Assembly: GCF_913773725.1 (NCBI RefSeq)
Contig: NZ_CAJYGK010000115.1
Location: 1 to 64,000 of the forward strand
DNA length: 64,000 nucleotides
Source: an uncultured Aquabacterium sp.
GTDB taxonomy: Bacteria > Pseudomonadota > Gammaproteobacteria > Burkholderiales > Burkholderiaceae_C
Reading direction: 5' to 3'
This document shows, one piece after another, positions 27,126 to 47,631 of this stretch; positions within the stretch are counted from its first letter, which is position 1; each line of letters opens with the position of its first letter. Below the pieces are notes generated by a model. The model saw only the letters and a list, made by a program, of their open reading frames with translations, was not told where the DNA came from and made no database searches. The position numbers and the translations under genes were made by a program.

Positions 27126-28646
<1,521 letters not shown>

Positions 28647-28669: not shown

Positions 28670-29704
28670 TCAGACGGGTTCGACCTGACCGCTGCGCAGC
28701 GAGCGCGTGATGGCCAGCCCGATGCGGGTGGCCTCGGTGGCGTCCGACAGCGACAGCGGCACCGGGCGGGTGCCCCAGCAGCTGTCGACAAAGGCCTGCA
28801 TCTCCAGCTGGAAGGCCTGCTCGAATCGCTCGAAGAAATCCTGAACGGCCAGGTGGCGCACGCCATGCTGGTCCGAGTAGACGACGCGGTCGCGGGCGGC
28901 GCCTGCGCCGACCTGAAGTTGGCCGCGGGTGCCGATCACCTCGGTCTGGGTCTCATGGCCGTGTGCAAAGGTGCGCGAGGCATACAGCACGGCCCGCGCG
29001 CCGCCTTCGAACTCGACGATGGCCAGGCCGTTGTCGACATCCTGGTGCTGCGCCAGATCGGGGTGGCAGGCGATGGTGCCGCTGGCGTAGGCGCGCAGCG
29101 CCCTGGGCGAACCGAGCATCCAGCGGGCCAGGTCGATGTCGTGCACGCTGCAGTCCATGAAGATGCCGCCCGAGGTGCCGGCGAAGCGCACGAAGAAGCC
29201 GTCGGGGCTGTACTGATCGGCCGTCTGCGAGCGCACCAGAAAGGGCTTGCCCACGGCATCGGCCTGGATGCTCGCGTAGGCGTTCGCGTAGCTGGGGTCG
29301 AAGCGCCGCACGAAGCCGACCATGGCCACCTGGTCCGGGTGGCGTGCCTTGACGGCCTCGACCCGTTCGCAGTCGGCGACGTTGAGCGCAAGCGGCTTCT
29401 CGATGAAGACGTGCTTGCCCGCTTCGAGCACGGCGATGGTCTGCTCGGCGTGCAGTGACGTCGGTGTCACCAGCACGACGGCGTCGAGATCGGCGCCCTG
29501 CAGCATGGCCTCCAGGCTGTCGAACACCTGGGGGATGCCGAGCTGCTGTCGGGCGGCGTCGCGCTCGGAATCGACCGGGCTGCACGCGGCCACCAGATCA
29601 CAGTGACGCACGCGAAACGTGAGGTTCTCGGCATGGCGCATGCCCAGGCGGCCCAGGCCGGCGATGCCGATGCGCAAGGGGCGATTCGAGGCGGACAGGC
29701 TCAC
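28670..29704 (-). CDS. Gfo/Idh/MocA-family oxidoreductase
   Basis: 344-aa NAD(P)-dependent dehydrogenase. The N-terminal Rossmann motif is [14 protein letters not shown], the catalytic EKPLAL segment carries the conserved Lys, and the C-terminal half is the Gfo/Idh/MocA beta-sheet domain with [12 protein letters not shown]. It is a second inositol-type dehydrogenase beside iolG, so a role on scyllo-inositol, chiro-inositol or an amino-/methyl-inositol (MocA- or IolX-like) is plausible. No ATG gives the full fold; the GTG at 29704 follows GAGGAT by 7 bp. The preceding iolG stop overlaps that ribosome site. Confidence 0.85.
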
Positions 29705-29714
29705 GGTGTGATCC

Positions 29715-30701
29715 TCAGAAGGTGACGATCGCGCCGGTTTCGGCCGAGCGGGCTGCGGCGTCGGACAGCTTCTGGGCGGCCACGCCGTCGGCGATGGTGG
29801 TGCGGAACGGGCCGCCGTCCTGCAGGCGGGCGAAGAAGTGCTCCAGCTCCAGCCGGTAGGCATCGCGGTAGCGCTGCAGGAAGAAGGCTTCCGGCTTGTC
29901 CTGGCTGATGCCGTTCGGCCCCCAGGCCACCACCTCGGTCGGCTTGTGGTTGCCGCAGGCCAGCAGCCCTTGCGAGCCCAGCACCTCGAAGCGCTGGTCA
30001 TAGCCATAGGCGGCCCGACGGCTGGTGTTGATCTGGCAGAGCTTGCCGCTGCGTGTGCGGATGTTGACGATGGTGCTGTCCAGGTCACCGGCCTGACCCA
30101 CGGCGGGATCGGTCAGCACCGAGCCCGTGGCGTGCAGTGAGGCGGCCTCGTCGCCCATGATCCAGCGGAAGACATCGAAGTCGTGGATCAGCATGTCACG
30201 GAAGATGCCGCCAGACGACTTGATGTAATCGACCGGGGGCGCGCCCGGGTCGCGGCTGGTGATCACCAGCATCTCGGCCACGCCGATCTCGCCACGGTCC
30301 AGGCGCTCCTTGGCTGCATTGAAGGTCGGGTCGAAGCGGCGCTGGAAGCCGATCATGCAGGCCACACCGGCGGCCTCGACGGCGCGCTGGCATTCCTCCG
30401 CACGCGGCACCGACAGGTCGACCGGCTTTTCGCAGAAGATCTGCTTGCCGGCGGCCGCAGCGCGCAGGATCAGATCGGAGTGGGTGCTGGTGGGCGAGCC
30501 GATCAGCACCACGTCGATGCTGCTGTCGCTCAGGATGGCTTCGACGGTGCGCACCTGCGCGCCGAGTTTGCTGGCCAGCGCGTCGGCGGCGGCGGGCATC
30601 GGGTCGCTCACGGCCACCAGCTTGACGCCGGGCAGCGCGGCCACGTTGGTGGCATGGATGGAGCCGATGCGGCCGGCCCCGAAAATGGCAACGTTCTTCA
30701 T
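29715..30701 (-). CDS. iolG: Inositol 2-dehydrogenase
   Basis: 328-aa Gfo/Idh/MocA enzyme that oxidises myo-inositol to 2-keto-myo-inositol (inosose) with NAD. The Rossmann motif is FGAGRIGSIHA and the catalytic Lys lies in IFCEKPVDL. IGFQRRFDPTFNAA and GGIFRDMLIHDFDVFRWI match rhizobial and Burkholderial IolG closely. The start codon overlaps the regulator's stop (ATGA), indicating coupled translation. Confidence 0.93.
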   Translation of the reverse strand: MKNVAIFGAGRIGSIHATNVAALPGVKLVAVSDPMPAAADALASKLGAQVRTVEAILSDSSIDVVLIGSPTSTHSDLILRAAAAGKQIFCEKPVDLSVPRAEECQRAVEAAGVACMIGFQRRFDPTFNAAKERLDRGEIGVAEMLVITSRDPGAPPVDYIKSSGGIFRDMLIHDFDVFRWIMGDEAASLHATGSVLTDPAVGQAGDLDSTIVNIRTRSGKLCQINTSRRAAYGYDQRFEVLGSQGLLACGNHKPTEVVAWGPNGISQDKPEAFFLQRYRDAYRLELEHFFARLQDGGPFRTTIADGVAAQKLSDAAARSAETGAIVTF

Positions 30702-31603
30702 GCAGAGGTCCTTGTGCGTTGGGTGGTGGGCTGGTAGGCCAGCTCCAGTCGGTAGGCCAGGGCGATGAACAGGCTCTGTGCCAGGCTCATCGTCGAGGTG
30801 AGAGAACGGAAACCCAGAACGGCGCTTTCCTGCACCAGCAGCAGGGCCTTGGCGTCCTTGGCCAGCGGGCTCATGCGGCTGTCGGTGATGGAGATCAGGC
30901 TGGCGCCCTTCTCGGCAGCGGCGGCTGCAACGACCTGGGTTTCCTCGGCATACGGGGCGTAGGAGATAGCGATGACGACGTCGCCCTTGCGGATGCCGCG
31001 GGCCTGCCCCTCGTGCGTCGAGCCCAGGGCCGAGACCAGGTGGATGCGCTTGTCGGTGTGCTGCAGCGCGTAGTTCAGGTACACGCAGGCGGCAAACGAG
31101 CGCCGTGAGCCGACCAGCCAGATGTTGTCGGCGGCGGTCAGCAGGTCCACGGCCTTCTTGAACGCCGTGGCATCGAGCCCGTCCTGCAGCTCCTGCAGGC
31201 CGGCCATGCTGCCCGAGAGGAACTCGTGCGCGATGGCCGCGCTGGTGAGCTGGCCGGCCCCGGCTTCGATCACCTCCCGGATGCGGGCCTTGTAGCTGCG
31301 GCCCGGTGCGATCTGCCGCGAGATGACGTCCCTGAACAGCTTCTGCATTTCAGAGAAGCCCGAGAAACCGAAGTGCTTGGCAAAGCGGACGATGGCCGAT
31401 GGCTGCACGCCACAGGCCGCGGCCACATCCTGGATGCCTTCGAGGCCCAGGTGGTCACGGTGTTCTTCCACGTAGCGGGCGATGACCTTGAGCTGCTTGC
31501 TCAGGTCGTCGAACTCGGCCGAGATGGCCTTGAGCAACTGCTCGACGTTGGCGGGTGGATGGGACATGTTCTTGCGATCGCGATGGGTGTCAGACGGGTT
31601 CAT
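30698..31603 (-). CDS. iolR: RpiR-family regulator of the inositol genes (IolR-like)
   Basis: About 301 aa. An N-terminal RpiR helix-turn-helix (IQDVAAACGVQPSAIVRFAKHFGFSGFSEMQKLFRD) is followed by a SIS sugar-phosphate-binding domain (LVGSRRSFAACVYLNYAL; VVIAISYAPYAEET). RpiR-type IolR proteins repress iol genes in rhizobia and Caulobacter, with a phosphorylated inositol intermediate as likely inducer. Two starts are possible, 31603 and 31567, neither with a strong ribosome site. Two GGAA-N6-TTCC-like sites lie directly upstream, which suggests autoregulation. The divergent neighbour is the ferredoxin reductase gene. Confidence 0.88.
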   Translation of the reverse strand: MNPSDTHRDRKNMSHPPANVEQLLKAISAEFDDLSKQLKVIARYVEEHRDHLGLEGIQDVAAACGVQPSAIVRFAKHFGFSGFSEMQKLFRDVISRQIAPGRSYKARIREVIEAGAGQLTSAAIAHEFLSGSMAGLQELQDGLDATAFKKAVDLLTAADNIWLVGSRRSFAACVYLNYALQHTDKRIHLVSALGSTHEGQARGIRKGDVVIAISYAPYAEETQVVAAAAAEKGASLISITDSRMSPLAKDAKALLLVQESAVLGFRSLTSTMSLAQSLFIALAYRLELAYQPTTQRTRTSA

Positions 31604-31606
31604 TGT

Positions 31607-31640
31607 AGAAATGGATTTCCAAAAAAGAAAACGGGTTTCC
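31607..31640. promoter_or_regulatory. Two IolR-type operator candidates
   Basis: AGAA-ATGGAT-TTCC (31607-31620) and GAAA-ACGGGT-TTCC (31627-31640) each match GGAA-N6-TTCC at 7 of 8 positions. A 16-bp stretch, AAACGGGTTTCCCCTA (31629-31644), recurs exactly at 37251-37266. They lie between the regulator and the ferredoxin reductase gene. Confidence 0.65.
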
Positions 31641-31666
31641 CCTAATCCAATAAAACAGAAAAAAAT

Positions 31667-31746: not shown

Positions 31747-32985
31747 ATGGCATCACAACGGGCGATGGCCGTGGTGGGCGCGGGCCACGCGGGTGGCCGA
31801 GCGGCCCTGCAATTGCGTGCACAGGGTTGGACGGGGCCCATCGTCGTGTTCGGCGAGGAGCCTGATCTGCCCTACGAGCGGCCGGCCCTTTCGAAGGGAC
31901 TGCTCACCGGTGAGCAGTCAGCCGATCAACTCATGCTGGCCCAGGCCGAGGGCTACGCCGGCCAGGGCATCACCGTGCGGCTCGGCACGGCCGTGACCCG
32001 CATCGACACCGCCGCCCGGCAGGTCCATACCGCGGCCGGCGAGGCCCTGGATTACGAGGCGTTGCTGCTGGCCACGGGCGGCCGGGCGCGCCGGCTCGCC
32101 ATCCCCGGGGCCGACCAGGCGGGTGTGCAGGCCTTGCGCACGCTGGCCGATGCCCGGGCCTTGCAGGCCCGGCTGCAACCGGGGCAGCGGCTGCTGATCG
32201 TCGGGGGCGGCTTCATCGGCCTGGAAGTGGCCGCGTCCGCACGGGCGCGGGGGTGTGAGGTCACGCTGCTCGAAGGGGGCGTGCGGCTGATGGGCCGGGC
32301 AGTGCCGGCACCGATTGCGGAGCGTGTGGCCGCCTTGCATCGGGCGCACGGTGTGGACCTGCGCCTGCGCGCCGCGCCGGAGTCCATCGCGGCGCTCAAC
32401 GGCCGGCTCCACGTGCGCCTGCTCGACGGGGATCTGATCGTGGTGGACACGGTGGTGGCCGGCATCGGCATCGAGCCCGGCGTGCAGCTGGCCCGGGAAG
32501 CGGGTCTGCGGGTCGGCCATGGCGTGTGCGTGGACCGCCACCTGCGTACCAGCGACCCGCACGTCTTCGCCGCGGGCGATGTGGCCGAGTGCCCCAGCGT
32601 GCTGTCCGGCCTGCCCCTGCGTCAGGAAACGTGGCAGAACGCCGAGCGCCAGGCCGCCGTGGCGGCGGCCAACATGCTGGGTGGCCAGACGGTGTACGAC
32701 ACGCTGCCCTGGTTCTGGTCCGATCAGTATGACCACACCCTGCAGGTGGCCGGTGAGCCCGCCCTGGCGGCCACCGAGGTTCAGCGCACGCTGGGCGAAG
32801 GGGCCGTGCTGCACTTCTATCTGGACAGCGACGGACGTGTGGTGGGGGCCAGTGGCTACGGCCCGGCCCGGGATGTCACCAAGGAGCTGAAGCTGGCGCG
32901 CGCCCTGGTCGAGCGCCTGGCGCGTCCGCAGGCCGCGGCCTTGCAGGACCCGAACGTCAAGCTCAAATCGCTGCTCACGGCCTGA
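31747..32985 (+). CDS. FAD-dependent ferredoxin reductase (rhodocoxin reductase type; MocF-like)
   Basis: 412-aa NAD(P)H-dependent reductase that passes electrons to a small [2Fe-2S] protein. The FAD loop is VVGAGHAGGRAALQL and the family hallmark PYERPALSKGLL follows. The NAD-binding GGGFIGLEVAAS lies in the middle, with VFAAGDVAEC and the C-terminal reductase domain WFWSDQYDHTLQVAG behind it. The obvious partners are the Rieske ferredoxin and membrane oxygenase encoded 1.5-3 kb away. Rhizopine catabolism in Rhizobium uses such a trio (MocD, E, F). The equivalence is inference. Confidence 0.88.
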   Translation: MASQRAMAVVGAGHAGGRAALQLRAQGWTGPIVVFGEEPDLPYERPALSKGLLTGEQSADQLMLAQAEGYAGQGITVRLGTAVTRIDTAARQVHTAAGEALDYEALLLATGGRARRLAIPGADQAGVQALRTLADARALQARLQPGQRLLIVGGGFIGLEVAASARARGCEVTLLEGGVRLMGRAVPAPIAERVAALHRAHGVDLRLRAAPESIAALNGRLHVRLLDGDLIVVDTVVAGIGIEPGVQLAREAGLRVGHGVCVDRHLRTSDPHVFAAGDVAECPSVLSGLPLRQETWQNAERQAAVAAANMLGGQTVYDTLPWFWSDQYDHTLQVAGEPALAATEVQRTLGEGAVLHFYLDSDGRVVGASGYGPARDVTKELKLARALVERLARPQAAALQDPNVKLKSLLTA

Positions 32986-32989
32986 TTCC

Positions 32990-33994
32990 ATGAAAGACCT
33001 TCACATGCTGCCCATCGGCATCAACATCGACGGTGTTCTCGACCACGATGGCCTGCCCTGGCCCACGCCCGCCGAGCGCTTCGAGCGCGTGGCCCGGTCG
33101 GGCGTGTACGACTACATCGAAAAGAATTTCGATCCGACCGAAGACATCGCGCCCTACCTGCGGCTGTCCGAGCAGGTGGGTGTGCAGTTGCGTGTCATGG
33201 GCGGCATCCACCTGGCGGGGCGCGATGAAGCCCGCATCGCACGGGAGATCGCGGTGGCCGGCGAGCAGGGCGCGCGGGTGTTCAACTGCCAGCTGTTCGC
33301 ACGGCACGCCGACGGGCACGCGCTCACCGACGACGAGGTGGCGCACTTCTTCTTGCTGGCCATGGAACATGGCACGCGCTCGGGCGCCTTGCCGAGCTTC
33401 GAGGTCCACGTCGACATGTGGAGCGAAGACCCGCGTCGCGTCGAGCGTGTGGCCGAGCGGCTGGCGCGCCACAACGTGCGGCTGCGCGTGACGCTCGATC
33501 ACTCGCACCTGATCTTCAAGATCGACAACCCGCCTGAACTGGACCTCAGTGGCATTGCCGAGGATGTGCAGACCGGGCGCGTGGTGCTGCAGCCCGGGCA
33601 ACCGGACACGGTCTATGCGCTGTGGCTGCGTGAAGGCTGGGTGGCCCATGCCCACACGCGCAGTGTGCAGACGGCAGGCCGGCCCAACCCCTGGATGGCG
33701 CGGGGTGACGGGCGTGCCGGTCGCGGCATCCAGTACCCCTTCGTGGCACCGCCCGAGGGCAGCTACCACCAGCCCTGGCAGGCGGGCGAGCTGCTCACCT
33801 GGAAGGCTGCGGTCACGGACCTGCTGGCGTGGTGCGCGGCGCATCCTGAGCGCGCCCCGGCCCAGGTCTCGTGCGAGTTCATCCCCTTTGCGGACTATGG
33901 GGGCGGAGCGCGCTACAGCATCTTCGAGCAGAACGTCGCGTGTGCCCGCTGGTTGCGTGAGACCTGGGCGTCGCTGGCTGCCACGCCGTCCTGA
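32990..33994 (+). CDS. Xylose isomerase-like TIM-barrel protein
   Basis: 334 aa, related to AP endonuclease 2 / sugar-phosphate isomerase proteins: MLPIGINIDGVLDHDGLPW at the start, VHVDMWSEDPRRVERV and VTLDHSHLIFKI mid-barrel, and CEFIPFADYGGGARYSIFEQN near the end. Asp, His and Glu residues at strand ends could hold a metal. It starts 5 bp after the reductase gene, so it should act in the same pathway, perhaps as an epimerase or dehydratase on a modified inosose. ATGs at 32990 and 33005 are both possible. Exact reaction unknown. Confidence 0.75.
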   Translation: MKDLHMLPIGINIDGVLDHDGLPWPTPAERFERVARSGVYDYIEKNFDPTEDIAPYLRLSEQVGVQLRVMGGIHLAGRDEARIAREIAVAGEQGARVFNCQLFARHADGHALTDDEVAHFFLLAMEHGTRSGALPSFEVHVDMWSEDPRRVERVAERLARHNVRLRVTLDHSHLIFKIDNPPELDLSGIAEDVQTGRVVLQPGQPDTVYALWLREGWVAHAHTRSVQTAGRPNPWMARGDGRAGRGIQYPFVAPPEGSYHQPWQAGELLTWKAAVTDLLAWCAAHPERAPAQVSCEFIPFADYGGGARYSIFEQNVACARWLRETWASLAATPS

Positions 33995-34024
33995 CCGGGC
34001 GGCCAGCGACGCCCCCTGCTCGCA

Positions 34025-34420
34025 TCAGAGCCCGAACCAGGCCAGCCACCCGGCTGGCCTTTTGCTGAGCGCCACCGAGGCCATCCAGCCCAATACCATC
34101 AGGGCGCTCACCCACGCGGCCGCGCGCACGGCCATCGGCCTTCCGGGGCGGATGGCGACCGTGCCCAGGCCGATGTAGACCACCAACCCGATCAGCTTGG
34201 CCATGAGCCAGGGAGCCTGGCCAGGCTGCAGCTTCAGCAGGATGGCCAGCGCCACACCGGAGGCCAGCAACACCGTGTCGACCACGAGGGGCAGCACGCG
34301 GGCGGGTTTGGACCGCACCCAGCCTGCGCCCGTGAAAATGCCAAGGCCCCGGGCGGCAAAGCCCAGGGCCGAGAGGGTGATGGCTGCCAGGTGCAGCGTC
34401 TTCAGCGTGGTGTAGTCCAT
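34025..34420 (-). CDS. SirB2-family small membrane protein
   Basis: 131 aa with four predicted transmembrane helices (about 7-25, 45-62, 72-88, 99-117) and short loops, matching the SirB family. The opening YTTLKTLHLAAITLSALGFAARG is typical. Despite the name, taken from a Salmonella locus, function is not established. It is convergent with the TIM-barrel gene and downstream of the Rieske ferredoxin on the same strand, but nothing links it to inositol. Confidence 0.82.
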   Translation of the reverse strand: MDYTTLKTLHLAAITLSALGFAARGLGIFTGAGWVRSKPARVLPLVVDTVLLASGVALAILLKLQPGQAPWLMAKLIGLVVYIGLGTVAIRPGRPMAVRAAAWVSALMVLGWMASVALSKRPAGWLAWFGL

Positions 34421-34481
34421 GGCGCCGGATTGTGACCCGGACGGGCGCCGATCGTGCTCCGGGTCACACCACCGGGCCGGT

Positions 34482-34796
34482 TCAGGCCACGGGCTGGATG
34501 TAGATCACGCCGTTGTCGATGCGCGCAGGATGCGTCTTCAGGTTCACACACACCGGCGCGCCCATGGCGCGGCCATCCCGCACGTCGAAACGGCCGTTGT
34601 GCTTGGGGCACTCGATCACGTGGTCCATCACCAGGCCGTCGCACAGGTGCACCTGCTCGTGGGTGCAGTGGCCGTCCAGGGCATAGACCTGGTCGTTCAC
34701 GCGGCAGATGGCGTAGCTGTGGCCGTTGTGGTCGAAGCGTGCCACGTCTTCGTCGTCGATGTCGTCGAGCGGGCCGACTTCAATCCAGTTGCTCAT
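34482..34796 (-). CDS. Rieske [2Fe-2S] ferredoxin (MocE-like)
   Basis: 104-aa soluble Rieske ferredoxin. The cluster ligands are C44-x-H46 and C63-x2-H66 (HCTHEQVHL and ECPKHNGRFD), the standard pattern. It would shuttle electrons from the FAD reductase to the oxygenase encoded just upstream. The start at 34796 has an AGGAG site 8 bp away and lies 28 bp after the oxygenase stop. The closest functional analogue I know is MocE of rhizobial rhizopine catabolism; other Rieske ferredoxins of dioxygenases look similar, so the call depends on the neighbours. Confidence 0.9.
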   Translation of the reverse strand: MSNWIEVGPLDDIDDEDVARFDHNGHSYAICRVNDQVYALDGHCTHEQVHLCDGLVMDHVIECPKHNGRFDVRDGRAMGAPVCVNLKTHPARIDNGVIYIQPVA

Positions 34797-34824
34797 GGGG
34801 GGTCTCCTGAGGGTGAGGGGTGGG

Positions 34825-35937
34825 TCAGGCGGTGCGGGGCGACAGCGGCGCGCGTTCCGGCGAGGATGCCGGGGTGGCACCCGGAATCGGGCGCCGCACG
34901 TAGTGGCCTGGATCGCGGGCCTGCTTGAGCAGGTTGGGCAGGATCTCGGCATAGGCCGCGGCCGTGCTGGGATAGGCCGGCGGGCAGTCGGCGGCGATCA
35001 CCTCGTGCAGGCGGGGCAGGGCATGGAAGGGCACCATCGGGAACATGTGGTGTTCGACGTGGTAGTTCATGTTCCAGTACAGGAAGCGGAACACCGGGTT
35101 CATGTAGACGGTGCGGCAGTTGGCTCGGTGATCCAGCACGTTCTCGGGCAGCGCCGCATGCTGCGTCAGACCGAAGAAGCTGTAGAGCCAGGCGCCATAG
35201 ATGCTGGGCAGGCCGATGAACAGCAGCGGCACCCAGGTGCCTGCGGCCACACAGCCCGCCACCAGCGCGGTGTAGATCAGCACCCACACGCGGGCCTCGC
35301 GCACGACCTTGGGCCACTCCATCTCCGGGATGTAGCTCTTGTCGTGGGCGCTGATGTGGCCGGTGGCGTTCACCAGCACACGCCAGATCTCGCGCGGGGC
35401 GTGGATCAGGCCGAAGAAGCCGATCAGCTGCATGAACACGTTGACGGGCACGGGCACGGCGATCTCCGGGTCGCGGCCCGTCACCAGCGTGTCGGTGTGA
35501 TGTCGCGCATGCGTCCAGCGCCACACCGTGGGCCGGCGCATCACTTGAAAGCAGGCCAGCTGGTACAGCACCTCGTTCATCCAGCGCGTCTTGAAGGCCG
35601 TGCCGTGGCTGGCTTCATGCCAGCGCGAGTCGGCCGGGCCGCAGTACAGGGTGCCGTACAGCAGGAAGGCGGGCACGGCCCACGCGGTGTCCAGGGCCGA
35701 CCACGCCAGCAGCCCGCTGGCGATGATGAGCGCGTACCACAGGGCGGTGTCACGCAGGGCGCGCGCGTCGTTGCGCTGCATGAGCTCCTTCATCACTGGG
35801 CGGGGCACCGCGCAGCGATACCAGTTGGCGTTGACCAGCCCGGCCGAGGCGGCGTGGTTGCCGGCCCCGTGCAGCAGGTCGTAGTCCGACGAGCCGGTGC
35901 GGACCGGAGGGCGGGGAAGGTGCAGAGGGGTCTCCAT
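34825..35937 (-). CDS. Membrane di-iron oxygenase of the fatty-acid desaturase/AlkB fold (MocD-like)
   Basis: 370 aa with all three histidine boxes of integral-membrane di-iron enzymes: HEASH at about 107-111, HARHH at 143-147 and HVEHH at 293-297. Hydrophobic helix pairs lie at about 66-95 and 217-255. The family desaturates or hydroxylates. With a Rieske ferredoxin next door and a ferredoxin reductase nearby, the set matches MocD/E/F, credited with oxidative demethylation of the rhizopine 3-O-methyl-scyllo-inosamine. Lipid desaturase remains an alternative. The start at 35937 has a TTGGAGA site. Confidence 0.85.
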   Translation of the reverse strand: METPLHLPRPPVRTGSSDYDLLHGAGNHAASAGLVNANWYRCAVPRPVMKELMQRNDARALRDTALWYALIIASGLLAWSALDTAWAVPAFLLYGTLYCGPADSRWHEASHGTAFKTRWMNEVLYQLACFQVMRRPTVWRWTHARHHTDTLVTGRDPEIAVPVPVNVFMQLIGFFGLIHAPREIWRVLVNATGHISAHDKSYIPEMEWPKVVREARVWVLIYTALVAGCVAAGTWVPLLFIGLPSIYGAWLYSFFGLTQHAALPENVLDHRANCRTVYMNPVFRFLYWNMNYHVEHHMFPMVPFHALPRLHEVIAADCPPAYPSTAAAYAEILPNLLKQARDPGHYVRRPIPGATPASSPERAPLSPRTA

Positions 35938-36037
35938 GGGGTGTGTCTCCAATGTCAGAACGAGGCAGGCAGTCCGCAGCGGGTGTCTGCGTTCGAGCCT
36001 GATCCATGGAGGGCGATGCTAGGCAGCATGCGGGTTT

Positions 36038-36079
36038 GGCTCAATGGTCGAGCCTGTCACTCCTATCAGAAACTATCAG
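36038..36079. promoter_or_regulatory. Candidate operator elements between oxygenase and LacI genes
   Basis: GGCTC-AATGGTC-GAGCC (36038-36054) is a perfect 5-bp inverted repeat, close to LacI-family operator size. It is followed by a direct repeat CTATCAG-AAA-CTATCAG (36063-36079). Both lie in the 193-bp gap between the divergent oxygenase and regulator genes. No experimental motif is known to me for this regulator. Confidence 0.4.
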
Positions 36080-36130
36080 GATGACCTGCCAGAACCCATC
36101 AAAACCAGCAGCCTGTAGGGGCTGCCCCCA

Positions 36131-37186
36131 ATGGCCATGAGCCCCACCCGACGTCCCACCATGGTGGCGGTGGCCGAAGCGGCCGGGGTGAGTGTGGCCA
36201 CGGTCGACCGCGTGCTCAACAGCCGCCTTCCTGTCAAGGAGCGCACCGCGGTGCGCGTCATCGAGGCGGCCCAGCGTCTGGGCTATCACGGTGCCGACCT
36301 GATGCGCCAGCGTGTGCTGGGCGGGGCAAAGGGGCCGGCGCGCACGTTGGGCTTCATCCTGCAGATGCACCACGACGCCTTCTACCAGCCCTTGGGCGAG
36401 GCGCTCTGCCAGGCCGCCGCGGCCGAGACCCGCTGGCGTTGCCAGGCCGTGGTGCGCATGGTCGATGCCCTGCAACCCGAGGCCATGGCCGACGCCATGC
36501 GCGATCTGGCCCGCCAGGCCGATGGCATCGGGGTGGTCGCGGGGGACCATCCACACGTCAACCAGGCCGTGGCCGATCTCAAGGCCGCAGGGTGCCCGAC
36601 GGTGGCCTTGCTGTCCGACATCGGCTCACCCTTGCGGGCGGGGTACGTCGGGCTGGATCACCGCAAGACGGGACGCACGGCGGGATGGGCCATCAGCCGC
36701 CTGTCCCGCCAGCCGGGGGAGGTGGCGGTGCTGGTGGGCAGCCACCGCTTCATCGGGCAGGAACTGGCCGAGATGAGCCTGCGCTCCTACCTGCGCGAGC
36801 GGGCGCCCGACTTCCGCGTGCTCGATGCCGTCGTCAGCCGCGAGGAAGAGGCCATGGCCTATGAGGCCACCCTGGCCCTGATCGACCGGCATCCCGACCT
36901 GGTGGGGCTGCACCTGCCCAGCGGCGGGGTGGCCGGGGTGGTGAGGGCCCTGCGCGAAACGCGCTCGCATGACCACCACATCGTGTCCGTGGCGGCCGAG
37001 CTGTCGCCCGTTCACCGTGCCGCCCTGCTCGACGGGGTGCTCGACCTCGTGATCGCCACGCCGCGGCAGGCCGTGGCCCAGGCGGCCGTGCAGCTGCTGT
37101 GTGAAGCGCTGGATGCCCACGGGCAATCCTGGACGCCCCGAGCCATGGACCTGCCGTTCGATCTGTTCTCGCCCGAGAACGTGTGA
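36131..37186 (+). CDS. LacI-family transcriptional regulator
   Basis: 351 aa. The N-terminal LacI helix-turn-helix reads TMVAVAEAAGVSVATVDRVLNSRLPVKERTAVRV, and a periplasmic-binding-protein-like sensor domain follows (LGFILQMHHDAFYQPLGEAL; GYVGLDHRKTGRTAGW). It diverges from the oxygenase-ferredoxin pair and precedes the IolI-like gene, so it probably senses a sugar or cyclitol and controls the oxygenase branch. It is a second regulator in addition to the RpiR protein. The start could be 36131 or 36137; the ribosome site is weak. Confidence 0.88.
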   Translation: MAMSPTRRPTMVAVAEAAGVSVATVDRVLNSRLPVKERTAVRVIEAAQRLGYHGADLMRQRVLGGAKGPARTLGFILQMHHDAFYQPLGEALCQAAAAETRWRCQAVVRMVDALQPEAMADAMRDLARQADGIGVVAGDHPHVNQAVADLKAAGCPTVALLSDIGSPLRAGYVGLDHRKTGRTAGWAISRLSRQPGEVAVLVGSHRFIGQELAEMSLRSYLRERAPDFRVLDAVVSREEEAMAYEATLALIDRHPDLVGLHLPSGGVAGVVRALRETRSHDHHIVSVAAELSPVHRAALLDGVLDLVIATPRQAVAQAAVQLLCEALDAHGQSWTPRAMDLPFDLFSPENV

Positions 37187-37219: not shown

Positions 37220-37291
37220 GGAAGGGCGGTTCCAAGAAAACAAAAATTAGAAACGGGTTTCCCCTAGGTCCGAAATGAGAAAATAATTTCT
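37220..37291. promoter_or_regulatory. Three phased IolR-type operator candidates
   Basis: GGAA-GGGCGG-TTCC (37220-37233) fits GGAA-N6-TTCC exactly. AGAA-ACGGGT-TTCC (37249-37262) fits 7 of 8 and AGAA-AATAAT-TTCT (37278-37291) fits 6 of 8. Their starts are exactly 29 bp apart. They lie upstream of the main plus-strand inositol operon, 38-109 bp before the first start codon. Confidence 0.7.
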
Positions 37292-37328: not shown

Positions 37329-38141
37329 ATGCGCTTTTCCCTCAACCGTATCGTAGCCCCTCGCCACAGCCTGCGCGACTTCGTGGCGCTCTGCCAGCGC
37401 CTGGACATCACCGACATCGAACTTCGCAACGACCTGCCCGGCATCGAATTCGTCGATGGCAGCTCGCCCGCCGAAGTGGGGCAGGTGGTGCGCGACGCGG
37501 GCCTGACGGTGCGCACCATCAACGCGCTGCAGCGTTTCGAGCAGTTCGACGCCCGGCGTGAGGCCGAGGCCCATGCGCTGGCCGATACGGCCGTGGCCTG
37601 CGGCGCCCAGGCCCTGGTGCTGTGCCCGACAAACAGCGCGCAGGATGTACGCAGCGCCAGTCAGCGTCATGACGACCTGGTTCATGCCCTGAGCAAGCTG
37701 ACCCCGATCCTGCAGTCGCGCGGCCTCAAGGGCCTGGTCGAGCCGCTGGGCTTCGGCATCTGCGCCACCCGCACCAAGGCCCAGGCCGTGCGCGCCATCG
37801 ATGCCGTGGACGGCCGCAACCTGTACAGCCTGGTTCATGACACGTTCCACCATCATCTGGCGGGCGATCCGGCCCTGTTCCCGGAACTGACCGGCCTCGT
37901 GCACATCTCGGGCGTCGAGGCCCCCGAGCTCCATGTGGACGAGATGGGCGACCAGCACCGCCTGCTGGTGGGCCAGCTGGACCGCCTGGGCACCGTGTCC
38001 CAGCTGAAGGCGCTCCGGGAGCGTGGCTGGGACGGCCTGGTGTCGTTCGAGCCCTTTGCCGTCGAGGTAGCCGAGTCCCCCAACATCGAAGCCGAGCTGC
38101 GCGACAGCATCGCCTTCATCCGAGCAGGCCTGGCTGCCTGA
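37329..38141 (+). CDS. IolI-like TIM-barrel isomerase/epimerase
   Basis: 270 aa, xylose isomerase-like TIM barrel, first gene of the plus-strand iol operon. It resembles Bacillus IolI (2-keto-myo-inositol isomerase) in length and in the segments ITDIELRNDLPG, VEPLGFGICATRTKAQAV and LVHDTFHHHLAGD; the Glu, Asp and His residues there fit metal ligands. IolI interconverts inosose isomers, which lets D-chiro-inositol enter the pathway. A MocC-type role is an alternative. A GGAG ribosome site lies about 7 bp before the ATG. Confidence 0.78.
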   Translation: MRFSLNRIVAPRHSLRDFVALCQRLDITDIELRNDLPGIEFVDGSSPAEVGQVVRDAGLTVRTINALQRFEQFDARREAEAHALADTAVACGAQALVLCPTNSAQDVRSASQRHDDLVHALSKLTPILQSRGLKGLVEPLGFGICATRTKAQAVRAIDAVDGRNLYSLVHDTFHHHLAGDPALFPELTGLVHISGVEAPELHVDEMGDQHRLLVGQLDRLGTVSQLKALRERGWDGLVSFEPFAVEVAESPNIEAELRDSIAFIRAGLAA

Positions 38142-38212: not shown

Positions 38213-39133
38213 ATGAAAAAATGGATCTCGGCCGCCCTGGTGACCATGATGATGCCGGTTGCGGCCATGGCCCAGACCAAAGTGGGCGTCGCGATGGCCC
38301 ACTTCGATGACAACTTCCTGACCATTCTGCGCGGGGGCATGCAGAAGCACGTGCAGGGTCTGAAGGGGGTGTCCCTGCAGTTCGAAGACGCGCGCGGCGA
38401 TGTGGGCCGCCAGGTCAGCCAGGTCGAGAACTTCATCGCCCAGAAGGTCAGCGCCATCATCGTCAACCCGGCCGACACGGCGGCGACCAAGCGCATCAGC
38501 GAGGCGGCCCGCAAGGCCGGCATCCCGTTGGTGTACGTGAACCGCAAGCCCGACGAAAAGATGGGCAACGGCGTGGCCTTCGTGGGGTCCGATTCGCTGG
38601 TGGCGGGGCGCCTGCAGGGTGAAGCCCTGGCCCAGCGCCTGGGCGGCAAGGGCAACGTGGTGATCATGGTGGGTGAACTGTCCACCGACGCAGCACAGGA
38701 CCGCACCCGTGGCGTGAAGGAAGTCTTCAAGAAGTACCCGGGCATCAAGGTCGTCGAAGAGCAGACCGGCAACTGGCAGCGCAGCCAGGGCATCGACCTG
38801 ATGAACAAGTGGATGGCAGCCGGCGTGAAGATCGATGCCGTGGCCGCCAACAACGACGAAATGGCCATCGGTGCGCTGATTGCCATGCGCCAGGCCAAGG
38901 TGAGCCCGAAGAAGGTGCTGGTGGCGGGCGTGGACGCGACACCGGATGCGCTGGCCGAACTGGTCAAGGGCGACCTGGCTTTGACTGTCTTCCAGAACGC
39001 AAAGGGACAGGGCGAAGGTGCCGTGGACCTGGCCTTGCGCATGGCCAAGGGCGACAAGGCCGCGCCGAGCACCGTGATGATCCCGTACGAGCTGGTCACG
39101 CTCGAGAACCACAAGAAGTACGCGACCAACTGA
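38213..39133 (+). CDS. Periplasmic sugar/inositol-binding protein of ABC transporter
   Basis: 306-aa type I periplasmic binding protein (Peripla_BP_4, RbsB/IbpA-like). The signal peptide MKKWISAALVTMMMPVAAMAQ ends near residue 21. The mature chain has VGVAMAHFDDNFLTILRGGM, then VSAIIVNPADTAATKRISEAARKAGIPLVYVNRKP and VAGVDATPDALAELVKGDLALTVFQ. Placement before an inositol operon suggests inositol or inosamine as ligand (IbpA- or MocB-like). A GAGGAGA site supports the start. Confidence 0.9.
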   Translation: MKKWISAALVTMMMPVAAMAQTKVGVAMAHFDDNFLTILRGGMQKHVQGLKGVSLQFEDARGDVGRQVSQVENFIAQKVSAIIVNPADTAATKRISEAARKAGIPLVYVNRKPDEKMGNGVAFVGSDSLVAGRLQGEALAQRLGGKGNVVIMVGELSTDAAQDRTRGVKEVFKKYPGIKVVEEQTGNWQRSQGIDLMNKWMAAGVKIDAVAANNDEMAIGALIAMRQAKVSPKKVLVAGVDATPDALAELVKGDLALTVFQNAKGQGEGAVDLALRMAKGDKAAPSTVMIPYELVTLENHKKYATN

Positions 39134-39251
39134 TCGCGGCTGCCGCCGCTGATTCGCGTGGTGGGTCGGGCAACCGGCTCGCCTCACCACTCCGATCGGT
39201 GGGTCCGGGCGTCCTCTGCCCCGTCCCGCCGACGCCCTGGAGCGCACCCTC

Positions 39252-40799
39252 ATGCAAGCAGATCTCGTAGAAATGCAGGCCGTGGCCACGACCGACCAAC
39301 CCGTCATGCTGGCCGCGCGCCACATCCGCAAGGCCTTCCCGGGTGTGGTGGCCCTGGACAACGTCTCCCTCGACATCCGAGCCGGTGCCGTCCACGCCCT
39401 GATGGGCGAGAATGGCGCAGGCAAGTCCACGATGATGAAGATCCTCGCGGGCGCCTACATCGCCGACAGTGGCACGCTGACGCTGCACGGGCAGCCGTTG
39501 AACCTGCGCTCGCCCCGCGATGCGCTGGATGCCGGCATCGCCATGATCCACCAGGAGCTGAACCTGCTGGCGGACATGACGGTGGCCGAGAACATCTGGA
39601 TCGGCCGCGAGCCGCGCAATCGCCTGGGCCTCATCGATCACGGCGAGTTGAACCAGCGTACCCGGGCACTGCTGAGCCGTCTGCACCTGGACATCGACCC
39701 CGAAGCCATGCTGGGCGATCTGTCGATCGCCAATCGCCAGATGGTGGAAATCGCAAAGGCCGTGGGCTTCGAGTCCGATGTGCTCATCATGGACGAGCCC
39801 ACATCGGCCATCACGGAAAAGGAAGTCGCCCGCCTGTTCGCGATCATCGAGTCGCTGCGCGAGCAGGGCAAGGCCATCATCTACATCACGCACAAGATGG
39901 ATGAGGTCTTCCAGATCGCCGACGACATCTCCATCTTCCGGGACGGCAAGCACATCGTGTCGGGCCCCGCCTCCAGCTTCACGCCGAACTCACTGATTGC
40001 CGCCATGGTCGGTCGCGAGCTCAGTCAGCTCTTTCCCAAGGAAGAGGTCGAGATCGGCGACGTGGCGGTGTCGGTTCGCAATCTGACCCGCAGGGGCAAG
40101 TTCCACGACGTCAGCTTCGATGTGCGCTACGGCGAGATCGTGGGCTTTGCCGGGCTGATGGGCTCGGGTCGGACCGAGGTGGTCGAGTCGCTGTTCGGCA
40201 TCGATCCGGCCGACAGTGGCGAGATCACCCTCCATGGGCAGACCCTCCGCATTCGCCATCCCCAGCAGGCCATCGACCAGGGCATGGCGCTGCTGACGGA
40301 AGACCGCAAGAAGTCGGGTCTGTTCCTGATGCTGTCGGTGGGCGAAAACATGGAAATCACCGCGATGCGCCACCATGCCCGCGCCGACTTCGTGCGCCAG
40401 GGACAGGTCGATGCCTTGTGCGAGGACATGCGCCAGCGCCTGGCCGTCAAGACGCCCAGCCTGCACGAGACCATCGAGAACCTCTCTGGAGGCAACCAGC
40501 AGAAGGTGCTCATCGCGCGCTGGCTGCTCAACAAGCCCCGCATCCTCATTCTGGACGAGCCGACTCGAGGCATCGACGTGGGTGCCAAGTCCGAGATTCA
40601 CCGCCTCATGTGTTCGCTGGCCCGGCAGGGCGTGGCCATCATCATGATCTCCTCCGAGCTGCCCGAAGTGATGGGCATGAGCGACCGCATGGTGGTGATG
40701 CACGAAGGCCGTGTCGCCGGCGTGCTGCCTCGCCCCGAATTCAGTCAGGAACGCATCATGGCGCTGGCCTCCGGTGTGCGTGCCGACTTCACGAACTGA
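39252..40799 (+). CDS. Sugar ABC transporter ATPase with two nucleotide-binding domains
   Basis: 515-aa fused ATPase of the carbohydrate-uptake 2 (RbsA/MglA/IatA) type. The N-terminal domain has Walker [10 protein letters not shown], the switch region [13 protein letters not shown] and Walker [12 protein letters not shown]. The C-terminal domain has a degenerate Walker A (GLMGSGRTE), signature LSGGNQQKV and [15 protein letters not shown]. The degenerate second site is normal for the family. It energises the adjacent permease. An ATG at 39252 gives a slightly extended N-terminus before the ATPase core. Confidence 0.93.
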
Positions 40800-40817
40800 A
40801 CCCAACAGGATCACATC

Positions 40818-41840
40818 ATGAGCCAACCAACCCTCAGTGCGATCAACCTGAACTCGCAGTCCTTCAAGGCCCCCGCACGCCGGTGGCCGCCCGAACTCAG
40901 CATCTTCCTCGTCCTGGTCGGCATCGCGCTGTGCTTCGAAGGCCTGGGCTGGATGGTGCGAGACCAGTCCTTCCTCGGCAACCCGGCCGGCCTGCTCATC
41001 ATGGTGCTGCAGGTCTCTGAAATTGGCCTGATCGCCATCGGCGTCACCATGATCATCATTGCTGGCGGCATCGACCTGTCCTCCGGTTCGGTGGTGGCGC
41101 TCACCGCGATGGTGGCGGCCAGCTTTGCACAGAGCAGCGATTACGCCCGCGCCGTATACCCGGCCCTGACCGACATGCCGGCCATCGTGCCGATCTTCAT
41201 GGGGCTGGCGGTGGGTGCGCTCGTGGGCTGGATCAACGGCACCTTGATCGTGAAGACCGCTGTGCCGGCCTTCATCGTCACGCTCGGCATGATGGTGTCG
41301 GCCCGCGGTCTGGCGCGTTTCTACACGCACGGCCAGCCGGTGTCGATGCTGACCGAGCAGTACATGTGGATCGGCAGTGGTGCCAAGCCCGTGGTCGTCT
41401 TCCTGCTGACCGCGCTGCTGTTCCACATCGTGCTGCGCTACACCCGCTTCGGCAAGGCCACGTACGCGATCGGCGGCAACCCGGTGGCCGCCCGCGTGTC
41501 CGGCATCAACATCAACCGCCATCAGATCTGGATCTACACCCTGGCGGGCCTCCTCGCCGGTCTGGCTGGCGTGATTGCCTCGGCCCGCGCGCAGACCGGT
41601 CAGTCGGGCATGGGCATGTCCTACGAGCTGGATGCCATCGCCGCAGCCGTGATCGGTGGCACCAGCCTGTCGGGCGGTGTTGGCCGCATCACCGGCACCG
41701 TGATCGGTGCGCTGATCCTGGGTGTGATCTCGTCGGGCTTCACCTTCCTGGGCATCGACTCCTACATCCAGGAAATCATCAAGGGCGCCATCATCGTCGT
41801 GGCCGTGGTGGCCGACCAGATGCGCAAGAAGAAGCGCTGA
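40818..41840 (+). CDS. Sugar ABC transporter permease (RbsC/IatP type)
   Basis: 340-aa inner-membrane permease with about eight to ten hydrophobic helices. Family hallmarks are GVTMIIIAGGIDLSSGSVVAL, VGWINGTLIVKTAVPAFIVTLGMM and the late block AAAVIGGTSLSGGVGRITGTVIGALILGVI. It forms the membrane channel for the ATPase and binding protein encoded upstream, 18 bp after the ATPase stop. A substrate in the inositol group is inferred from the operon. Confidence 0.93.
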   Translation: MSQPTLSAINLNSQSFKAPARRWPPELSIFLVLVGIALCFEGLGWMVRDQSFLGNPAGLLIMVLQVSEIGLIAIGVTMIIIAGGIDLSSGSVVALTAMVAASFAQSSDYARAVYPALTDMPAIVPIFMGLAVGALVGWINGTLIVKTAVPAFIVTLGMMVSARGLARFYTHGQPVSMLTEQYMWIGSGAKPVVVFLLTALLFHIVLRYTRFGKATYAIGGNPVAARVSGININRHQIWIYTLAGLLAGLAGVIASARAQTGQSGMGMSYELDAIAAAVIGGTSLSGGVGRITGTVIGALILGVISSGFTFLGIDSYIQEIIKGAIIVVAVVADQMRKKKR

Positions 41841-41899: not shown

Positions 41900-43837
41900 A
41901 TGAGCACCCTTTCCTTTCCGGCCGATCGTCCGATCGACATCGCCTGCCTCGGCCGCCTGGCCGTGGACCTGTACGCCCAGCAGGTGGGCTGTGCGCTGGA
42001 AGACGCCTCCAGCTTTGCCAAGTACCTCGGCGGCTCGTCAGCCAACATCGCCTTCGGCACTGCCCGCCTCGGCCTCAAGAGCGCGATGATCTCGCGGGTC
42101 GGCAACGAGCAGATGGGGCGCTTCCTGCTCAACACGCTCACGCAGGAAGGCTGCGATGTCAGCCAGGTCCAGATCGACCCGCAACGTCTGACCGGCCTGG
42201 TGCTGCTGGGCCTCAAGGACCGCGACACCTTTCCGCTGCTGTTCTACCGCGAGAACTGTGCCGACATGGCCCTCGACGCCAACGGCATCGACGAGGCCTT
42301 CATTGCCAAGTGCCGCGCGCTGCTCGTGACCGGCACCCACCTCAGCACGCCGCAGGTGCGCGATGCGTCCCGACGCGCGCTGGCCTTCGCCGGGCAGCAC
42401 CGTGTCGTGCGGGTGCTCGACATCGATTACCGCCCCGTGCTGTGGGGGCTGACCACGCGCGGCGACGGCGAGACCCGCTTCGTGGCCGATGCCCGCGTCA
42501 CCAGCCAGATCCAGGAAGACCTGCCTCGGTTCGAGCTCATCATCGGCACCGAAGAGGAGTTTCTGATCGCGGGCGGCGTGCCCGATGACATCATGGCCTC
42601 GCTGCGGGCCGTGCGGGCGGTCACCCGGGCGGCGCTGGTGGTCAAGCGCGGCGCCATGGGGTGCAGCTTCATCCCGGGGGCCGTGCCGGCTTCGCTGGAC
42701 GAGGCGGAAACCGTGCAGGGCGAGCGCGTGGAGGTGCTCAACGTGCTGGGCGCCGGCGACGCCTTCGCCTCGGGCCTGCTCAGCGGCCTGCTGCGCGGCA
42801 AGTGCTTCGCTGACGCCGCGGCCATCGCCAATGCCTGCGGGGCGATCGTGGTGTCGCGCCACGCGTGCGCCCCGGCCATGCCGACCCCGGACGAGCTGGC
42901 CCACTGGTTCAGCGGCCACCGGCATCCCCGGCCCGACCGCGACCCGGTGCTGTCGCACCTGCACCGCGTCACCGCGGCCCGCCCCCAGTGGCCCGAGGTC
43001 TATGTCATGGCCTTCGATCACCGCTCGCAGTTTTACGAACTGGCGCGCGAGAACGGGGCCGATGAAGCCCGCATCCCCGAGCTGAAGCGCCTGATCGCCC
43101 GGGCTGCCAGCCTCGTGGCCGACGATCCGGCCACCCGCGGCAAGATCGGGGTGCTGGTCGACGACCTGTATGGCGAGGCCTCGCTGCACGATGTCACCGG
43201 CCGCGGCTGGTGGGTGGGGCGCCCCATCGAGCTTCCTGGTTCTTGCCCGCTGCGCTTCGACCGCACGCTGTCGCTGGCCACCAAGCTGCAGAGCTGGCCG
43301 CGTGAGCAGGTCGTCAAGTGCCTGGTCTTCTACCACCCGGACCATGCCGTCGACCTGCGCCTGGAGCAGGAGCGCACCCTGCTGGAAGTGTGGGAGGCCA
43401 CGCGCGCTTCGGGGCACGAACTGCTGCTCGAGGTCATCCCGCCCAAAGGCAGTGTGGTCGATGGCGACATCGGCGATGCCGTGGTGCGTGCGGTCAAGCG
43501 CCTCTACAACATCGGCATCAAGCCGGAATGGTGGAAGCTGGGGGTGATGCCGGCGCAGGCCTGGCAAGCACTCGGCAGGCTGGTGGCCGAGCGCGATCCC
43601 TACTGCCGTGGCGCGGTCATCCTGGGCCTGAATCAGCCCATGGATGAATTGCTCGACGGCTTCCGTCAGGCCCGTGACCCGATCGTCAAGGGCTTCATGA
43701 TCGGACGGACCACCTGGGCCCAGCCCAGTGCCCAATGGCTGCGTGGCGAGCTGAACGACCAGGCCTTCACCGAGCGTGTCGCCGCCAATTTCCGTGTCCT
43801 GATCGAAGGCTGGCGCGCAGCGCGTGCGGCAGCCTGA
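41900..43837 (+). CDS. iolC: Fused 5-dehydro-2-deoxygluconokinase / phosphogluconate-type aldolase
   Basis: 645 aa with two enzymes in one chain. Residues 1 to about 330 are a PfkB kinase (IolC): LGGSSANIAFGTARLGLKSAM near the start and the NVLGAGDAFASGLL anion-hole motif with catalytic Asp. Residues from about 345 to the end match DUF2090, considered to supply the IolJ aldolase step (VMAFDHRSQFYEL; GVLVDDLYGEASLHD). Together they phosphorylate DKG and split DKGP into dihydroxyacetone phosphate and malonate semialdehyde. The ATG at 41900 follows AAAAGGA. No separate iolJ is present, consistent with the fusion. Confidence 0.92.
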   Translation: MSTLSFPADRPIDIACLGRLAVDLYAQQVGCALEDASSFAKYLGGSSANIAFGTARLGLKSAMISRVGNEQMGRFLLNTLTQEGCDVSQVQIDPQRLTGLVLLGLKDRDTFPLLFYRENCADMALDANGIDEAFIAKCRALLVTGTHLSTPQVRDASRRALAFAGQHRVVRVLDIDYRPVLWGLTTRGDGETRFVADARVTSQIQEDLPRFELIIGTEEEFLIAGGVPDDIMASLRAVRAVTRAALVVKRGAMGCSFIPGAVPASLDEAETVQGERVEVLNVLGAGDAFASGLLSGLLRGKCFADAAAIANACGAIVVSRHACAPAMPTPDELAHWFSGHRHPRPDRDPVLSHLHRVTAARPQWPEVYVMAFDHRSQFYELARENGADEARIPELKRLIARAASLVADDPATRGKIGVLVDDLYGEASLHDVTGRGWWVGRPIELPGSCPLRFDRTLSLATKLQSWPREQVVKCLVFYHPDHAVDLRLEQERTLLEVWEATRASGHELLLEVIPPKGSVVDGDIGDAVVRAVKRLYNIGIKPEWWKLGVMPAQAWQALGRLVAERDPYCRGAVILGLNQPMDELLDGFRQARDPIVKGFMIGRTTWAQPSAQWLRGELNDQAFTERVAANFRVLIEGWRAARAAA

Positions 43838-47449: not shown

Positions 47450-47479
47450 ACGCACGGCGTCCTAGGGTTCTTCCGGACA

Positions 47480-47502
47480 TTAATTAATCATTAATTAATT
47501 AA
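47480..47502. repeat. AT-only tract with repeated TTAATTAA palindromes
   Basis: Three copies of the octamer TTAATTAA (47480-47487, 47491-47498, 47495-47502, the last two overlapping) in an otherwise GC-rich region, 130 bp before the LamB-type porin gene. It could be an upstream activating or nucleoid-protein site; no factor is identified. Confidence 0.6.
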
Positions 47503-47631
47503 TACTTTGTTAAGAAGGCTGCGGCGGGCTTCCGGAGACCCGCACCGGGTCAGATGGCCCGGCAGACGGCCCTCCCGTTCTTCCACCACCAACTGTGTCG
47601 GCAGAAAGACCGACCTACCGAGGAGCAAACG

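Follow-up and report, generated by a model that had tools for sequence, protein, structure and literature searches.

A MocDEF-type oxygenase module in the inositol locus of an uncultured Aquabacterium: a putative O-demethylase for plant methyl-inositols

In this study we analysed a 64-kb stretch of DNA from an uncultured Aquabacterium sp. (contig NZ_CAJYGK010000115.1, positions 1 to 64,000), hereafter the window, in which genes for a ferredoxin reductase (MocF), a Rieske ferredoxin (MocE) and a membrane di-iron oxygenase (MocD) lie inside a locus for inositol catabolism (iol). Two TIM-barrel proteins, TIM1 and TIM2, and two regulators of the LacI and RpiR families are encoded beside them (Table 1). 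Sequence comparisons give good support for a real MocDEF module that is coupled to inositol catabolism. The most likely job of this module, for which we hold somewhat more belief than doubt, would be the O-demethylation of plant O-methyl-inositols, with pinitol, ononitol, bornesitol, sequoyitol or quebrachitol as the presumed substrate class. An initial annotation of the window had offered pinitol, ononitol, bornesitol or rhizopine as conjectured substrates.

Link of the oxygenase module to inositol catabolism

All parts named in the initial annotation were recovered where it had placed them, and the iol locus around the trio is complete: IolA, IolG, an IolC-aldolase fusion, IolD, IolE and IolB all score above the NCBIfam cut-off (bit scores in this study come from Pfam and NCBIfam models, the latter with curated cut-offs). 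The link between the trio and this pathway was also seen in a survey of 399 genomes of the window's family, in which MocD was called at E <= 1e-60 and IolD above its NCBIfam cut-off. MocD was detected in nine genomes and IolD in 42, and all nine MocD genomes have iolD (p 7e-10). Counted by genus, the association was 6/6 vs 20/141 (p 4e-6).

MocD relatives are widespread. A profile scan of genome contigs with a ten-row alignment as query confirmed at least 584 of them, and the best 80 of these supplied the loci compared here. For 49 non-fusion loci with full flanks, the 10 kb around MocD were compared with 40 random 20-kb stretches, a comparison limited by the fact that the random stretches all came from the window's family and the loci from many phyla, and that related loci were counted as independent. 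Inositol-type catabolic genes were present in 29/49 MocD loci vs 2/40 random stretches (p 2.7e-8), a LacI gene in 38/49 vs 0/40, sugar ABC transporter parts in 18/49 vs 0/40 and a PanB-like gene in 11/49 vs 0/40.

Apart from the make-up of the random sample, several observations weigh against an O-demethylase of methyl-inositols. Of the nine MocD genomes, five have iolD no further than about 17 kb from MocD and four have it on another contig of the draft, and four of the nine belong to one genus. The core genes iolB-E were weakly enriched near MocD (7/49 vs 1/40, p 0.055), and PurU was not above random (3/49 vs 1/40, p 0.39). Inositol-type neighbours were found in only one of 17 loci with a fused oxygenase (see below), and no inositol enzyme cluster was seen in the eight Caballeronia-type loci drawn. 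The window itself has no PanB-like or PurU neighbours, the best PanB match in its genome reaching 34%. Upstream of its MocD there is no IolR-type site, and neither a palindrome nor a recognised LacI operator was found between MocD and LacI.

Since the fusion and Caballeronia loci mostly lack inositol neighbours, part of the MocD family may serve other substrates. The substrate of the trio might be a different O-methyl or deoxy sugar or cyclitol, for which the inositol locus would serve as an outlet. We regard this as unlikely for the window, yet it deserves to be taken seriously. An aldose 1-epimerase gene adjoins some of the fusion or Caballeronia forms. In addition, two MocD genes lie 2.6 to 4.3 kb from each other in three genomes (G348, G406 and G281). 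Every one of these genes has a LacI to itself, and most have a MocE (a single MocE was detected for the two MocD genes of G348). The two MocD classes are about 47% identical within one genome and 85-90% identical within a class between G348 and G281, and two classes with a LacI of their own in one genome indicate several substrates. Against this stands the window's family, in which all MocD genomes have a full-length iolD and eight of nine have TIM1. Three MocD copies each occur in G079 and G406. In three records (L132, L133 and L134) two old MocD classes lie close together, each with a LacI gene, and MocF-TIM1 is located elsewhere.

The oxygenase family and its electron-transfer partners

MocD matches the family FA_desaturase and carries the three His boxes HEASH, HARHH and HVEHH. 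The His residues of these boxes are invariant in the window protein and nine relatives (41-67% identity), and also in 26 sequences, in line with the three boxes named in the initial annotation. Within the genus, only the window's genome and one other out of 42 have a close MocD.

A match to FA_desaturase could also mean that MocD desaturates or hydroxylates lipids and lies in the iol locus by accident. The long helices of the predicted MocD model would suit such a protein, and the MocD trees with their GntB-like outgroup contain no characterised lipid desaturase among their rows. For the first, quick tree of 101 rows, 124 trimmed MocD-like sequences were thinned by near-identity, and eight out of 18 outgroup rows were kept; a partial MocD and four desaturases of the window's own genome were left out (two of these were too distant and two were removed by the motif filter). 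In this tree, for which the program warned of long branches, 93 MocD-type rows stood apart from the eight outgroup rows with a support of 100, and the window MocD fell inside a betaproteobacterial clade of 30 rows (support 97). The outgroup rows are FA_desaturase proteins of congeners that are nearest to GntB, an arginine hydroxylase, at 77-94 bits vs a cut-off of 380. Two of the four own-genome desaturases were put back for a careful tree of 31 rows. There the GntB-like rows formed one side and the two own-genome FA_desaturase proteins another, each at 100/100, and the window MocD stood in an eight-row MocD clade (100/100); only 22% of the bootstrap trees placed all MocD rows together on one side. 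The phylogeny called for in the initial annotation is thus covered in part: the window MocD does group with a MocD that adjoins a verified MocR, which upholds the proposed MocDEF homology, but the outgroup rows are GntB-like proteins and not verified lipid desaturases.

The own-genome lipid desaturase DesA was verified by its family score (626 vs 400 bits), and the MocD profile found no similarity in it (-5.8 bits), so that it could not be placed in the MocD tree. The other own-genome desaturases scored 5 to 24 bits on this profile, the two FA_desaturase proteins among them 20-24. Conversely, the window MocD remained far below the cut-off of the NCBIfam desaturase models (DesB 46 vs 500 bits). 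A lipid desaturase is therefore disfavoured by the family scores and the DesA comparison, and not by the tree; as MocD also co-occurs with iolD, we give this explanation very little credence. When the MocD model was compared with the Protein Data Bank (PDB), two chains matched with E < 1e-3, each of them part of a plastid FtsHi motor complex, and PDB sequence searches gave nothing useful.

The electron-transfer partners were correctly recognised in the initial annotation. MocF has the domains of a ferredoxin reductase, and MocE shows the intact Rieske ligands C-x-H and C-x-x-H in its translation, although it barely passes the MocE model TIGR02377 (Table 1), on which the proteins of two rhizobial plasmids reach 185.8 (L009) and 183.8 bits (L010). 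Of the 80 MocD loci, 75 have a MocE relative, either as a separate protein or as part of a fusion. In 17 of the 80, a single protein of about 760 amino acids covers MocD and more; these fusions come mostly from Verrucomicrobia and Acidobacteria, plus one Chloroflexota bin and one bin with no stated phylum. Four of the 17 were scanned, and all four contained FA_desaturase, Rieske and NAD_binding_1 domains, the reductase being of another type than MocF. For example, a MocD-type oxygenase, a Rieske domain and an FNR-type reductase form one protein in L049:9953-12241. Because oxygenase, Rieske domain and reductase are naturally fused, the parts of the trio form one enzyme, and on this evidence from domain architecture MocD, MocE and MocF can be taken to act as one unit.

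The set is not unusual for a betaproteobacterium. Burkholderia, Caballeronia, Paraburkholderia and Sphaerotilus, among others, carry it as well, and mocDEF next to xylA2 has been published for Pseudomonas syringae phylogroup 3 (PMC5132102; the reports given by PMC number are cited from excerpts). That arrangement resembles the window in that mocDEF adjoins a xylose-isomerase-like gene, and mocCABR is lacking. Its function is left open there, and an inositol locus goes unmentioned in the excerpt of that report.

Proposed demethylation route and the rhizopine question

We infer the O-demethylation, the later steps and what each regulator senses from the make-up of the locus. In the proposed three-component monooxygenase, electrons from NAD(P)H would pass via MocF, with its FAD, to the Rieske ferredoxin MocE and on to the di-iron oxygenase MocD, which would hydroxylate a methylated inositol at its O-methyl carbon. 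The hemiacetal would break up into formaldehyde and free inositol, and the latter could be oxidised by IolG or by a second dehydrogenase. The inosose so formed would, if its stereochemistry demands it, be isomerised by TIM1 and TIM2, and IolE, IolD, IolB, IolC and IolA would complete the route. Uptake might proceed via the adjoining ABC transporter. The divergent LacI would control MocD-MocE, and the RpiR protein, probably IolR, would control MocF-TIM1 together with the transporter operon. Methyl-inositols are common in trees. Production of pinitol and/or ononitol is also widespread in legumes (PMC8730688), and in Rhizobium mesoamericanum exudate of Mimosa roots raised mocDEF 1.5-2.1 fold (PMC5789663). 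In the open literature, with most subscription journals lying outside the search, we found no report of a bacterial gene for the removal of the methyl group from methyl-inositols.

The fate of the formaldehyde may be reflected in the one-carbon neighbours of other loci. A PanB-like gene lies near MocDEF in 15 of the 80 loci and PurU in three; both follow mocDEF in a Phyllobacterium plasmid (L009) with a verified MocR (765 vs 650 bits). The PanB-like protein may act in one-carbon metabolism as a formaldehyde or folate enzyme. The PanB-like genes (L008:14715-15524, L009:14768-15583 and others) match Pantoate_transf in their second half only.

The best-known users of these genes are rhizobia, in which mocDEF belongs to rhizopine catabolism; the genes of Rhizobium leguminosarum and Sinorhizobium meliloti L5-30 were reportedly described by Bahar in 1998. 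These moc loci share with the window the same three protein families and a link to inositol catabolism. They differ from it in that the window has LacI and not MocR, a trio in two units, TIM1 as a partner and a genome with no MocR above cut-off, and its MocD is about 51% identical to the MocR-linked Phyllobacterium copy, which was compared instead of that of L5-30. Rhizopine units consist of mocDEF, mocR, mocBA and mocC (PMC10107442).

One could thus suppose that the trio of the window demethylates the rhizopine 3-O-methyl-scyllo-inosamine as well, given the homology of MocD, MocE and MocF, a MocE at the TIGR02377 cut-off and an iol pathway to take the product. However, no protein of the window's genome passes the MocR model NF052281 (best 470 vs 650 bits), which the positive control L009 passes with 765, and LacI stands in place of MocR. 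MocE is at the edge of its family (137 bits vs 186 in L009 and 184 in L010). The MocR-linked MocD of L009 has 87.5% identity with the LacI-linked MocD of S. meliloti 1021 and 50.6% with the window MocD, and it nests among rhizobial sequences in the 101-row tree. Strain Rm1021 produces no rhizopines (PMC6668481), which by itself does not exclude their catabolism. Rhizopine as substrate is therefore disfavoured by both the regulator and the phylogeny, and we consider it improbable, because the genome lacks a MocR above cut-off and the MocD that goes with MocR forms a branch within the rhizobia. We infer that the LacI-linked MocDEF is older than the MocR-linked form. The model of the rhizopine-binding protein, NF052284 (cut-off 420), does not discriminate here: the window scores 42 bits, and no protein of the MocR-bearing L009 record passes it either (best 172).

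Among LacI-linked relatives, those of Rhizobium plasmids and of S. meliloti 1021 pSymB (L008, L015 and L010) have LacI divergent from MocDEF as in the window, and in L008 and L015 a TIM2-like barrel adjoins the locus, also as in the window. In these loci, unlike the window, MocF shares the operon and is followed by a PanB-like gene, and no iol core genes were seen alongside. Another relative is the iol-moc cluster of Sphaerotilus (L029/L137 and L037), where iolD, iolC, a transporter, LacI, MocDEF, TIM1, RpiR, TIM2 and IolG lie in one stretch of L137. In contrast to the window, MocDEF forms one operon there, followed by PanB- and PurU-like genes, and an exact IolR-type operator is located about 49 bp upstream of MocD.

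Returning to the demethylation of methyl-inositols, it is tempting to speculate further, albeit as a tentative proposal in which we place less than even trust, that MocDEF serves bacteria in general as a cyclitol O-demethylase. Its MocD-MocE-LacI cassettes would be interchangeable, one for each O-methyl-inositol (pinitol, ononitol, bornesitol or quebrachitol); they would have one MocF and one TIM1, of a new metal-dependent family, in common and feed the iol pathway under IolR. In many lineages formaldehyde would go to a PanB-like one-carbon branch. The module would not be rhizopine-specific by origin, rhizopine use having arisen later when LacI was swapped for MocR. If the module does demethylate plant methyl-inositols, many genes labelled 'fatty acid desaturase' or 'rhizopine catabolism' would encode the methyl-inositol demethylation step, an unnamed TIM-barrel family would acquire a role, and the bacterial use of pinitol-rich hosts could be tested by one deletion.

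Barrel proteins, regulation and layout of the locus

TIM1 had no Pfam match at 0.001 and no NCBIfam match at 1e-25. It thus fails as IolE proper (TIGR04379), and the true IolE is encoded further downstream. Its AlphaFold model (pLDDT 75.5, pTM 0.81, from a six-row alignment) matched in Foldseek first IolE of Brucella (E 8.2e-9, query TM 0.54, 16% identity) and then sugar epimerases, so that the label 'TIM barrel' of the initial annotation appears right for the predicted fold. The residues E138, D170, H222 and E296, which we take to be the positions of a Glu-Asp-His-Glu metal-ligand set, are invariant in eight sequences. TIM1 was found at E <= 1e-30 in 16 of the 399 genomes, including eight of the nine MocD genomes (p 8e-12), with a search model built from TIM1 genes adjoining MocD, two of them from genomes within the 399. 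This threshold was set beforehand; a 'strong' class (seven genomes at E < 1e-150, all with MocD) was picked afterwards, and the match in G156 is weaker. In G348 and G406, TIM1, MocF and RpiR lie together, 1.7 Mb or more from MocD. A second barrel family, c13, is present in 14 of the 80 MocD loci, Pseudomonas and fusion-bearing bins among them. Over 263 columns the c13 profile can be aligned with TIM1 (probability 90, E 1.4e-6), and the four TIM1 residues fall on E, D, H and E of c13; TIM2 aligns with neither. TIM1 is a candidate inosose isomerase or epimerase by its predicted structure.

A LacI homologue is present in 46 of 63 non-fusion MocD loci, and the LacI matches of the window gene confirm the regulator noted beside the trio. 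A palindrome like TGACGAAATTTCGTCA lies between MocD and LacI in seven of 24 sequences inspected, all from Burkholderia or Paraburkholderia. Two promoters of the window share a sequence: the 16-mer AAACGGGTTTCCCCTA is identical at exactly two sites, 5' of MocF-TIM1 and 5' of TIM2 and the transporter, and although it was chosen by eye, 0.11 matches are expected even with three mismatches. The inositol operator of Caulobacter is GGAA-N6-TTCC (PMC2597717). Of 45 copies of this motif in 103 loci, 16 are found in the 300 bp ahead of a module gene, with 2.1 expected; for five scrambled motifs it was 2/83. The window has two exact sites, one preceding TIM2 (37220) and one within iolG (29879), which is nevertheless counted among the 16. 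MocD itself is preceded by four of the sites in the 103 loci (0.7 expected, p 0.006): one is from Sphaerotilus, a pair comes from related alphaproteobacterial bins (L044 and L045), and the fourth, about 304 bp off, is from an Akkermansiaceae bin. One-mismatch sites in the window were not convincing (21 found vs 12.9 expected). The motif GAAA-N4-TTTC, chosen after inspection of the sequence, was found four times in the window with 0.04 expected, one copy being inside TIM1. The RpiR protein is probably IolR, and the MocDEF module may be under the control of LacI and, probably, IolR.

Table 1. Features of the MocDEF module and the surrounding iol locus in the window.
Feature	Position	Strand	Evidence
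MocF-like ferredoxin reductase	31747..32985	+	Pyr_redox_2 229 bits, Reductase_C 63.8 bits
TIM1, orphan xylose-isomerase-like TIM barrel, 334 aa, candidate inosose isomerase/epimerase	32990..33994	+	4-bp gap to MocF
SirB-family protein, probably incidental	34025..34420	-	PF04247 125.7 bits
MocE-family Rieske [2Fe-2S] ferredoxin	34482..34796	-	ATG at 34796; TIGR02377 137.1 bits vs cut-off 136.15
MocD-type di-iron oxygenase	34825..35937	-	ATG at 35937; FA_desaturase PF00487 135 bits
LacI-family regulator, divergent from MocD	36131..37186	+	LacI 43.4 bits, Peripla_BP_4 101 bits
Putative operator region, RpiR-MocF intergenic	31607..31644		AGAAATGGATTTCC at 31607, 16-mer AAACGGGTTTCCCCTA at 31629
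Putative operator region, 5' of TIM2 and transporter	37220..37291		exact GGAA-N6-TTCC at 37220, 16-mer AAACGGGTTTCCCCTA at 37251, palindromes at 37249 and 37278
RpiR-family regulator, probable IolR	30698..31567	-	start 31567 or 31603; HTH_6 45.4 bits, SIS 73.5 bits
IolG, inositol 2-dehydrogenase	29715..30701	-	TIGR04380 406.5 bits vs 355
Second IolG-like dehydrogenase	28670..29701	-	TIGR04380 296.5 bits, below cut-off 355
IolA/MmsA	27126..28646	-	TIGR01722 674.6 bits vs 448.5
TIM2, AP_endonuc_2 TIM barrel	37329..38141	+	PF01261 80.5 bits
Sugar-type ABC transporter (binding protein, ATPase, permease)	38213..41840	+	Peripla_BP_4 213, ABC_tran 186, BPD_transp_2 149 bits
IolC kinase fused to DUF2090 aldolase	41912..43837	+	NF047869 1012 bits vs 600
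IolD	43851..45710	+	TIGR04377 909.8 bits vs 715
IolE	45741..46661	+	TIGR04379 386.9 bits vs 290
IolB	46661..47449	+	TIGR04378 325 bits vs 205

Because MocD and MocE are on the minus strand and MocF, with TIM1, on the plus strand, the trio is split over two transcription units in the window. A SirB-family gene, which the initial annotation had passed over, lies 3' of MocE on the same strand and had no match in the 80 MocD loci (1e-8). The second IolG-like dehydrogenase is a candidate for another inositol isomer. A-T-rich overlapping palindromes are located at 47479-47505, between iolB and a gene for a LamB-type porin.

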